A DNA stretch of 64,000 bases from Candidatus Nitrosocaldus schleperae (lineage in GTDB: Archaea; Thermoproteota; Nitrososphaeria; Nitrososphaerales; Nitrosocaldaceae): positions 62,001 to 126,000 of the forward strand of contig JABXGR010000002.1 in the NCBI GenBank assembly GCA_013538805.1. Reading direction: 5' to 3'. Below the pieces are notes generated by a model that did not search any database, was not told the origin of the DNA, and saw only the letters and a program-made list of their open reading frames with translations. Positions 23,423 to 27,953 of the stretch are shown piece after piece (position 1 is the stretch's first letter; each line of letters starts with the position of its first letter). The position numbers and the translations under genes were made by a program.

Positions 23423-26400
23423 TTATGCAGTGATACGCCTTCTAAGGTAGAGTACTGTAGTTGCTAGTGCACTAGTTACAACTGCTATAGTCCCTAATAT
23501 CCCTTCAGGCACAACGTTGAATGCAACACTTGTCTTTACAGATGCGATTTCGCCATCACTAAACTCAGCCATAATAATCCACTCCCCTGCTCTATCAAAT
23601 GTTATATTTGCTATAGATACCATATTGCCTCCAACATCCTCAGTGTTATAACTTCTCTTTATGAAGGTCCAGTCTGGTGCTATAAGCGATATGCTAACTT
23701 TGCTTATTGGTTTATCAGTTACTACTATACATTGCATAGGCTCACCTATACTTATAGGCATATCCCTTGCTAGGCATGCTAGCAGGTATATGCTGCCTCT
23801 TTTAACATCCATTAGCAGGTATCTTGTATCTCTATCCAGTCTTGGCTCTATCTGGTTTATGGTAGCAGTTATACTATCAGCCTTCTCGCTATCTAGAGGA
23901 TCTATAACCTCCCTTACAATTCTTTTAAGGTCATCTATGCTATGCAATACATAATAACTACTTAGCATTGTATAACCTGCAACAGCATAATTCATATCCA
24001 TATACCCTGTAGGCCCTGGCCATGGATGGGAGAAGCATGCTATAAGCCCTAACCTGCTAGCAGGAGAAGCCTCTGGTATAGCAATTGTATACTCTGTCCT
24101 TCCAACAACCTTGTTATCCTCCTCTACCCACTCTTTTATAAATTGCTCTGGAGATGAAGGGATCCATTCACTAGCATACTCGTTGGTGGAGTAGTTGTAC
24201 CATCTGAACTTTATATAACTGTACATGAACTTCCATATCTCAAGATTAGGATCGTTCCTGTCAAGTGATACTTTCACTGATGCAGTGATGGAGTTCTCAT
24301 CTGGACCTGGAATTAGGTTAATTGAGATGAACCCTCTATCTGCAGTATACTTGCCACATATCTCACCTATATTGAAGTTGATAGGTTCAATACTACCCTC
24401 TTCTTGTTGTGGTTGTTGAGGCTGCTGGGGCTGTTGTGGCTGAGGTTGTTGGGGTTGCTGACCTCCTGCAGATCCAGCATCAGTTATGGTAAAACTCTCT
24501 ATTCTATAAGTCATCTCCATGTAACCTCCAGGCATAGGATGCATAAAACATGCTAGAATCTTTACTCTACTGCTCTGTGAACTTGGTACGGTTAGATTAT
24601 AGGTACCTTCCCCATATAATGGATCACTGCTATTCCATTGTATAACCTTGATTGGTCCTATGGATGTTATCACGTTATTACTCTCATCCAGCCAGAAGAA
24701 TTTTATATCTTCGTACATCCATCTCCAATGCTTCGTTGGGTCAAAAGGCTCTCCGTAGTCATCTGGATTTACTCTTACAGTGAACTTTGCATTTACTGAT
24801 GAGCCAGATGTACCACTTCTAGGCTCTATTAGGAAGGTTATCTGTCTATCTCCTCCAGGATATATACTGCATGGGATGCTACCAGGTTGCTGTTGCTGCT
24901 GCTGTTGCTGTTGCTGCTGTTGTTGCTGCTGTTCCAAATCCTCTTCTTTTGGTGGCTCACTCCCTACATAGAATGTTGTATAACTATTAACCATATCCAT
25001 ATAGCCATCAAGCATAGGATGTACAAAGCATACAAGTAACTTTAGTCTACTTCCAACATCCACATCTGGGATGGTAAGAATTATCTTAGTGCTTCCAGTG
25101 TATATGTCATCATCACCATCATCCCAATTGATTATCCTTAATGGGTCCTTCCATTTACTCATCATTGTCTCATCACCAGCAAACCTCCAAGTTGTTGGTA
25201 AAGGTCTATTAGCATCATCAAGCCACGTTACTGTAATATACTCAAACATCCACCTCATGCTCTCATCCTCTGGCACTATCCTTATCCCTATACTTGCTCT
25301 AACATCGCTTGCAGGGAGTCCATACGAAGGTTCAAGGATTATCTTAACATCCCTATTAACCCATGGTGTACATAACTTACTTATATCTAGCGAGGTGATG
25401 ATCTTTATGCTCAACTCAAGCATTATACGTTCATCATCCACCCTTGCAATTATGTAGAGTCTACCTTCACTGCTTCCTTCAACTCTATGCTCAAACCTAT
25501 AGATAAATTCTTTCTCAGCCTTCTCATCATATATTGGAATAGTTCTACCATCGCTATACACAATATCTATTGCAAGATTGTATTCATCCTCACTACTACT
25601 TATGAAGAAACAGTTTAGCAGATCACCACTCTTAACCTCCACATTATTTGATATACATGCAAGAGTATATAGGCTTCCTTCTATAGCATCTATAAAGATG
25701 TATGATCCCTCCCTTATAGAGAGAGCCTTACTATCTGCACTCCCTTCATAATTTATAGCCCTTTCTACCAGTGCTGTAACCTTCTCTTCACTGAAACTTA
25801 TCCCTCTATCTGCTAATGCTTCAACCACCCTTTCAGGAATATCCTCTGCCTTATCTACTCTATAGTAGGTTATTACCTTCTCTTCCTGTATAACCTTGAA
25901 TGTGTGGGTTGTAAACCCTAACTCCCTCTGCTTGGTTGGAGAGCTCTCAAGCAGGCATGCTAGAAGCATGATATTGGTGTTGGCAGGGGCATCTGGTACC
26001 TCAATGTATGCTGATGCTCTTCCTACTAGAGAGCCATCATCTGAGTAGTCCCAGTATATCCTAGCCTCCTCCCATTCGGATAACTGCCTTGAACCATCTT
26101 GAGTTGAGAACCATGCAAACTTTACATGTGTTAGAGTGAAGATAAGACTCTCATCATTGCTATTGATCGATGCTACAGTATATACCCTGCTTTTAGGTAT
26201 GCCATAAGTATTACTTAATGATAGGTTCACTGTAAGGTTAGTTGGGAGCCTCTCTTCACCCTCCGTTAATAAGCAAGGGATGCTCTCTGAAGTAGGCTTT
26301 GGTTGTGGAGTCTCTTCTTCCTTCTTTATATTTATACTCTCTTCCTTGCTTTTAACCATCTCCTCCTTACCCTCATCCTTCTTAGGCACCACATTGACCT

Positions 26401-26861: not shown

Positions 26862-27953
26862 ATGCAGTCCAAGGCTCTCGCAATTATAGCAGTACTTCTG
26901 TTGGGAGGATTTGCAGGTGCATTTGCGGATACGGATCATTATGGGGGCGGTGGAGGCGGGCATGGATCTCCTAGCGATAGACTTGGCGACTTCTGTGGAA
27001 CCTACAATGATACATTCATAAGCCTTGATCTACATCCTTCAGGCGGGCTCCCTGGAGATAAGACAAATGCTACAATCACTGCAGACTATAACAAATCAGG
27101 TGGTGCATTGCCTCAACCAATCTTCGAGTTCATGTACAGTTATGTAACGCTTGCATGGTATAGACCATCAACCAATTCATGGATAGCAACTGATGGTGGT
27201 GTATGGTACAATCCTGCAGATGATTCTAGCCTTACTCCAGTATCTCCAAGACCAATACCTAGCAATCCTCTAATAACAACATGGTCAGGAGGTGTAGGTA
27301 CTAGAACTGTGAACCAGTTCCCTGTGCCAAACATAACTGTAAGCAATTTACTTCCAGGAGAAGAGATATGGCTTGTAGCATGCTTTGCACACCCTATGCC
27401 TGATGGTGGAGCAATGGATATGAACTACACAGTTGCAGAGTACCAAGTCTCTATATGCCATACAGAGAGGGATAGGGTAGTAGAGATAATACCATCAGCA
27501 ACCCAAGGGATGCCAGGAGATGCTATAGATGTTACAGTAAATGTATATCTTAATGCAGGTGATAGACCTGGTGGCTGGAGACTTATAAGGTTAGCATGGA
27601 TAGACGAGACAGGCAATCTTGCTGGACCTCATCAGGATGTTACAGCAACGCTAGTAGAAGGTACACTAGATGATAGTGGAAGGTTAACAGAGCCAGGAGG
27701 CAAACTACAGGCTACAGCAACCCTAACAGTACCAAATCTTCCAGCAGGTACACATCTAGACATACTTGCATGCAGTGGTCATCCAATGCCATTCTACGAT
27801 GGCTTTAAAGGCTACCATAGCCTAGACTTTACAGTACTTGGATTCATGGTGGTACCAGAGGTATTCATAGGCAGCATAGGGCTCATAGGTGCAGCTCTAG
27901 GCTCATTCATCCTCTACGCAAAGAGGATTACAAAGATAAGAGCAGAACATTAA
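26862..27953 (+). CDS. Secreted surface protein with two A-type domains and PEF-CTERM-like anchor
   Basis: A 363-residue protein. A signal peptide (1-22, ending AGAFA) is followed by a Gly/His-rich segment (DHYGGGGGGHG). Domain A5 starts at Cys45 and contains FMYSYVTLAWY and VACFAHPMPDGGAMDMNY near 171-188. Domain A6 starts near Cys197 and contains GWRLIRLAWIDETG and LACSGHPMPFYDGF near 300. The tail is VVPEVFIG, a transmembrane helix and a basic end. The same domain occurs four times in the divergent neighbour, so the genes share an origin. A TATA-like TTTTAATAGT sits at 26831-26840, in the roughly 250-nt divergent promoter region. No enzymatic motif is visible. Confidence 0.85.
   Translation: MQSKALAIIAVLLLGGFAGAFADTDHYGGGGGGHGSPSDRLGDFCGTYNDTFISLDLHPSGGLPGDKTNATITADYNKSGGALPQPIFEFMYSYVTLAWYRPSTNSWIATDGGVWYNPADDSSLTPVSPRPIPSNPLITTWSGGVGTRTVNQFPVPNITVSNLLPGEEIWLVACFAHPMPDGGAMDMNYTVAEYQVSICHTERDRVVEIIPSATQGMPGDAIDVTVNVYLNAGDRPGGWRLIRLAWIDETGNLAGPHQDVTATLVEGTLDDSGRLTEPGGKLQATATLTVPNLPAGTHLDILACSGHPMPFYDGFKGYHSLDFTVLGFMVVPEVFIGSIGLIGAALGSFILYAKRITKIRAEH

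Follow-up and report, generated by a model that had tools for sequence, protein, structure and literature searches.

P0001 and P0002, a divergent pair of neighbouring genes in the 1.45-Mb genome (97% complete) of a Candidatus Nitrosocaldus, encode predicted exported and C-terminally membrane-anchored proteins that are built from a new Ig-like domain, here termed module A, and that share a promoter element with a distant copC/D copper cluster. The presence of this element at the copper cluster suggests that both proteins may catch copper outside the cell. We tentatively propose that they are copper-limitation surface proteins whose module A hairpins hold copper, a plausible reading that we place somewhat short of probable. 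Copper underlies the energy metabolism of ammonia-oxidising archaea; if P0001 and P0002 belong to a copper-limitation response, they would be concrete candidates for the missing surface step in obtaining it. Beyond the repeated domain described by a sequence-only reading of the same DNA, the present analysis adds the common promoter element, the link to copC/D, the metal-ligand pattern of the hairpin, a second module (module B), and the finding that N. cavascurensis has lost this locus.

The window analysed is a 64-kb stretch of DNA in which the genes run in the order TenA, P0001 (minus strand), P0002 (plus), P0003 (plus), znuA, ABC ATPase, permease, and nikR (minus). Among relatives with titled records, N. 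tengchongensis (L030) and the MAGs L031 and L032 come closest to the source genome. From P0001 to nikR the order is identical in three further species, with TenA observed in two of them. A 502-aa protein with HD-like motifs and without a Pfam match (window 20547-22055, minus strand) is kept beside TenA across the genus. The features of the locus are as follows.

23423..26662, minus strand: P0001, 1079-aa predicted exported protein, A1-B1-A2-polyQ-A3-Gln/Pro linker-A4-B2-anchor
26649..26667, minus strand: P0001 promoter element, TTCGATTGTTGTACTATGT
25889..26275, minus strand: module A copy 1, aa 130-258, Cys pair present, His/Met hairpin absent
25376..25888, minus strand: module B copy 1, about aa 259-429, own Cys pair C336/C351
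24965..25375, minus strand: module A copy 2, aa 430-566, CFVHPMLDGYMDM
24887..24940, minus strand: polyglutamine linker of P0001
24482..24871, minus strand: module A copy 3, aa 598-727, CFMHPMPGGYMEM, the copy modelled with AF2
24392..24466, minus strand: Gln/Pro-rich linker of P0001
23948..24361, minus strand: module A copy 4, aa 768-905, CFSHPWPGPTGYMDM
23513..23947, minus strand: module B copy 2, about aa 906-1050, Cys pair C963/C978
23426..23512, minus strand: predicted C-terminal VVPE-type membrane anchor of P0001, beginning inside the preceding VVPE
26766..26784, plus strand: P0002 distal element copy, TTAGATGTTTGTACTAGAA
26811..26829, plus strand: P0002 proximal promoter element, TTTCATGAAAGTACCATAA, weak in this species and strong in L031 and L032
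26862..27953, plus strand: P0002, 363-aa predicted exported protein, signal peptide, short His-bearing stretch, A5-A6, anchor
26991..27455, plus strand: module A copy 5, aa 44-198, CFAHPMPDGGAMDMNY
27456..27851, plus strand: module A copy 6, aa 199-330, CSGHPMPFYDGFKGYHS
27852..27950, plus strand: predicted C-terminal VVPE-type membrane anchor of P0002, equal to that on other proteins of the genus
28034..28052, plus strand: P0003 promoter element, TTCTATTCCTGTACCATAA
28083..29525, plus strand: P0003, exported PEFG-CTERM-like protein whose family occurs widely among ammonia-oxidising archaea, gene preceded by the common promoter element

Upstream of A1, P0001 has an N-terminal membrane segment followed by a charged linker, and its start is probably MRFRFLYK rather than the listed TTG. 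Both anchors are predicted from sequence, and the same anchor type follows a single module A in small proteins encoded elsewhere in Nitrosocaldus. Archaeosortase genes are present in the genus and could act on P0001 and P0002, a suggestion that stays tentative because the anchors miss the PEFG and PEF models. At window 40974-41231 (minus strand), an exosortase-like stretch that scores only 22 bits and is interrupted by a TAA is either chance or a relic.

The sequence-only reading had placed six copies of one domain at this locus, four in P0001 and two in P0002, and both the placement and the kinship hold: in leave-one-out searches, profiles built without a given copy type still recovered its copies at E = 1e-8 to 2e-27 (E-values at proteome size). 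The Cys pair it had reported in all six copies is invariant in 24 of 24 modules from four species, where the only other invariant position is one Pro, and a Trp is found in at least 90%. All 12 Cys of P0001 are likewise invariant across its orthologs. This strict pairwise conservation points to a putative disulfide between the two module A Cys; VKOR, as a disulfide catalyst, is absent from six genomes. The remainder of the proposed signature was drawn too narrowly. Copies 2, 3, and 5 have HPM..MxM in full, while copy 4 reads HPW..MDM, copy 6 reads HPM..H, and copy 1 has no such signature; the [FY]-M-[YF] element, relaxed to [FY/W]M[YF], occurs in four of the six copies; and a domain of about 130 residues is correct, although individual copies span 129-155 aa. 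Orthologs of copy 3 are 65-82% alike and different copies 20-41%, so the duplications are older than the species compared.

An Ig-like beta pattern had also been suspected, and the AF2 model of copy 3 (24 alignment rows; pLDDT 88, pTM 0.83) is indeed an Ig-like beta-sandwich of two sheets and about seven strands, in which the first ten residues, including the first Cys, are less certain (pLDDT 61). The best Foldseek matches are Ig-like and macroglobulin-like sandwiches with modest TM-scores. Pfam, NCBIfam, PHROGs, and PDB sequences gave no family match, in keeping with the suggestion of an undescribed domain, and when 300 genomes of the class were searched by profile, module A turned up in Nitrosocaldus only. 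Module A is a new Ig-like family and not a new fold. The C-x2-H-x-M pattern brought cupredoxin/plastocyanin into consideration, which we rejected: there is no Pfam match, the Cys belongs to the invariant pair, and the conserved upstream His of the type-1 copper ligand set (unpaired Cys, two His, Met) is missing. No cupredoxin fold occurs among the best 50 Foldseek matches. Module B was modelled as a helical part with a beta-sandwich (best pLDDT 82, others 57-71) with weak structural matches, and no homology between the two modules was detected at profile level (hhalign probability 0.9%). The identification of P0001 or P0002 as S-layer proteins found no support; NCAV_0187/0188 are named in the literature as the S-layer genes of N. 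cavascurensis, a species in which module A matches only a 185-aa protein and a broken gene.

In the model of copy 3, H-P-M-P-G-G-Y-M-E-M forms the hairpin joining the last two strands. Judging by strand alternation in the secondary structure, His112, Met114, Met119, and Met121 would face one side and Cys109 the other. The hairpins show an enrichment of His and Met (p = 2e-8 for P0001 and 3e-4 for P0002, values that are descriptive since the segments were picked once the motif was known), and the hairpin residues vary among copies with the soft-metal ligands retained. We hypothesize that a stabilizing disulfide would link the N-terminal Cys of each module to the Cys on its penultimate strand, that the His and Met side chains on one face of the next hairpin would form a soft-metal site, most likely for copper, and that the Gln/Pro linkers of P0001 could space these sites into a flexible array. 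Exported and anchored at the surface, P0001 and P0002 might then capture or buffer copper for CopC/D and the copper enzymes of ammonia oxidation under scarcity.

The same architecture could also be structural or adhesive, with the modules serving as Ig-like units of a surface stalk, an S-layer accessory, or an adhesin, and with the hairpin making protein contacts in place of binding metal. We regard this as a real possibility, if not a likely one. It accords with the Ig-like fold, the multi-domain arrangement, the Gln/Pro linkers, and the anchors, as well as with the retention of the fold without the His/Met hairpin in copy 1 and in small relatives such as the 180-185-aa single-module type (the 195-aa type carries CVGHPHGPGDMHWYDF), yet it leaves unexplained both the His/Met enrichment and the promoter element common to the copC/D cluster.

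In four species, P0001, P0002, and P0003 are preceded by variants of this element, TTCGATNNTTGTACYATAA, with a TATA-like stretch directly after. When the window was scanned with a matrix trained on promoters of the distant copC/D cluster only, the three top sites fell upstream of P0003 (23.3 bits), P0001 (21.2), and P0002 (distal copy, 13.5); on 30 random sequences the best score of the same matrix averaged 11.9 and reached at most 21.6, while the third-best did not exceed 12.6; against these values the P0002 sites of this species are weak when taken alone. The element also precedes two exported genes adjoining the CopC-CopD fusion gene and, in one genome, copC/D itself. This copper cluster (L122:5970-14280; contig C8 of the same genome, about 107-115 kb) encodes a CopC-CopD-propeller fusion and a YtkA/Big_1-like protein, along with two P0003-like proteins and an exported protein of 182 aa, and has genes for a double cupredoxin and a terminal oxidase next to it. 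In ammonia oxidisers at large, most P0003-like genes are without the element, the core being found in 5 of 30, four of which are Nitrosocaldus genes. The element marks out a small predicted regulon for this thermophilic genus, and the predicted link between P0001-P0003 and the copC/D cluster is well supported by sequence.

In Nitrososphaera viennensis, a copper-limitation motif, TTCSGSMTTTGWACYANT, has been reported (Reyes 2020, PMC7785015), and the corresponding gene set includes copC/D and exported proteins of unknown function (PMC7785015). The Nitrosocaldus element aligns with this motif without any offset (column-shuffle p about 7e-4). Scanned as an IUPAC pattern, the Reyes consensus was uninformative in the window and three related genomes, finding neither these sites nor copper genes. 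Copper capture or buffering appears the most likely function because the element resembles this motif, and expression of P0001 and P0002 may thus be copper-responsive; we found no description of copper regulation in Nitrosocaldus in the literature searched.

The element could instead be merely a strong core promoter of the genus (BRE/TATA context) that carries no copper meaning, as its position, some 35-45 nt ahead of start codons and immediately followed by a TATA-like stretch, and one conserved copy elsewhere without an assigned gene would allow. This is improbable, given that the genome has only 9 exact core matches, that the 13 sites found in five genomes with no more than one mismatch are all confined to two loci (the P0001-P0003 locus and the copC/D cluster), that the TTCGAT part falls outside a BRE, and that the element resembles the N. 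viennensis copper motif.

The conserved copy elsewhere, TAAGATTTTTGTACCATAA with its TATA-like stretch, is found near position 1501 of L098, L115, L095, and L153 (four Nitrosocaldus genomes). Downstream of it, in the three genomes tested, there is no clear gene and no Rfam match, and these loci may hold an unannotated RNA gene. In two genomes, a 487-aa exported propeller-like protein (L135, L146) stands behind TTAGATNNNTGTACCATAA and is a possible further member of the regulon.

The P0001-P0003 locus has decayed in N. cavascurensis, where P0002 is gone and znuA-nikR is retained. At L082:11520-12078 (chromosome, about 263.5-264.1 kb), a frame-broken C-terminal remnant of P0001 adjoins a C-terminal stub of P0003, with znuA-nikR intact downstream. 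The 195-aa single-module gene is also frame-broken in this species (L042:1197-1734, minus strand), so that relatives were lost at two loci in one lineage. A role in another metal response (Zn, Ni, or Mn) together with the neighbouring ABC transporter and NikR would be favoured by the genes for a znuA-type transporter and NikR that follow immediately in four species and by the His-rich single-module relatives, but is likewise improbable, since the element is common to the copC/D cluster, the transporter genes have none of comparable score in the copC/D-matrix scan, and N. cavascurensis lost the locus yet retains transporter and nikR.

The proposal of copper-limitation surface proteins thus draws on the ranking of sites by the copC/D matrix, the confinement of the near-exact sites to two loci, the content of the copper cluster, the His/Met enrichment, and the AF2 placement of the signature on a hairpin. 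The adjacent metal ABC transporter and nikR also speak for it, if weakly, as znuA-nikR persist after loss of the locus. Against it stand the differing middle of the element, the outcome of the Reyes consensus scan, which missed these sites and the copper genes of relatives, the weak P0002 site in the window, the life of N. cavascurensis without the locus, and the lack of a His/Met hairpin in copy 1 and the 180-185-aa relatives. Copper binding by module A is putative. A more specific version, in which multi-site, disulfide-stabilized Ig-like stalks are induced by scarcity and form a dedicated surface copper trap concentrating Cu(I) for CopC/D and the ammonia-oxidation copper enzymes, is in our view unlikely, though if true it would be a new class of extracytoplasmic copper-acquisition protein.

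Several known systems resemble parts of this one. The anchors of P0001 and P0002 share with PEFG-CTERM and PEF-CTERM a C-terminal VVPE, a hydrophobic stretch, and a basic tail, but end in VVPE-x3-G, and neither protein is matched by the TIGR04296 or TIGR03024 profiles; P0003 scores 15.1 bits with the PEFG-CTERM model, below its cut-off of 25. The best solved structural match of module A, an alpha2-macroglobulin domain (2p9r), has the same seven-strand sandwich with a central-strand Trp and a penultimate-strand Cys, at TM-scores of only 0.46/0.58 and 12% identity. Unlike Ig-like and macroglobulin-type domains, module A has its first Cys at the N-terminus, a conserved His/Met hairpin, and no sequence family match. 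The Cu(I) sites of CusF and CopC combine His and Met on neighbouring strands with M-x-M spacing, and the predicted sites of the module A hairpins likewise offer His and Met (Trp too in copy 4) with M-x-M spacing, on a fold that differs from both proteins and shows no detected homology to them. Finally, the N. viennensis regulon rests on a response to copper limitation whereas that of Nitrosocaldus is predicted from sequence, and the central bases of the two elements differ, yet both have TTC-N5-TTGWACYA with equal spacing and a similar distance to the start codon.
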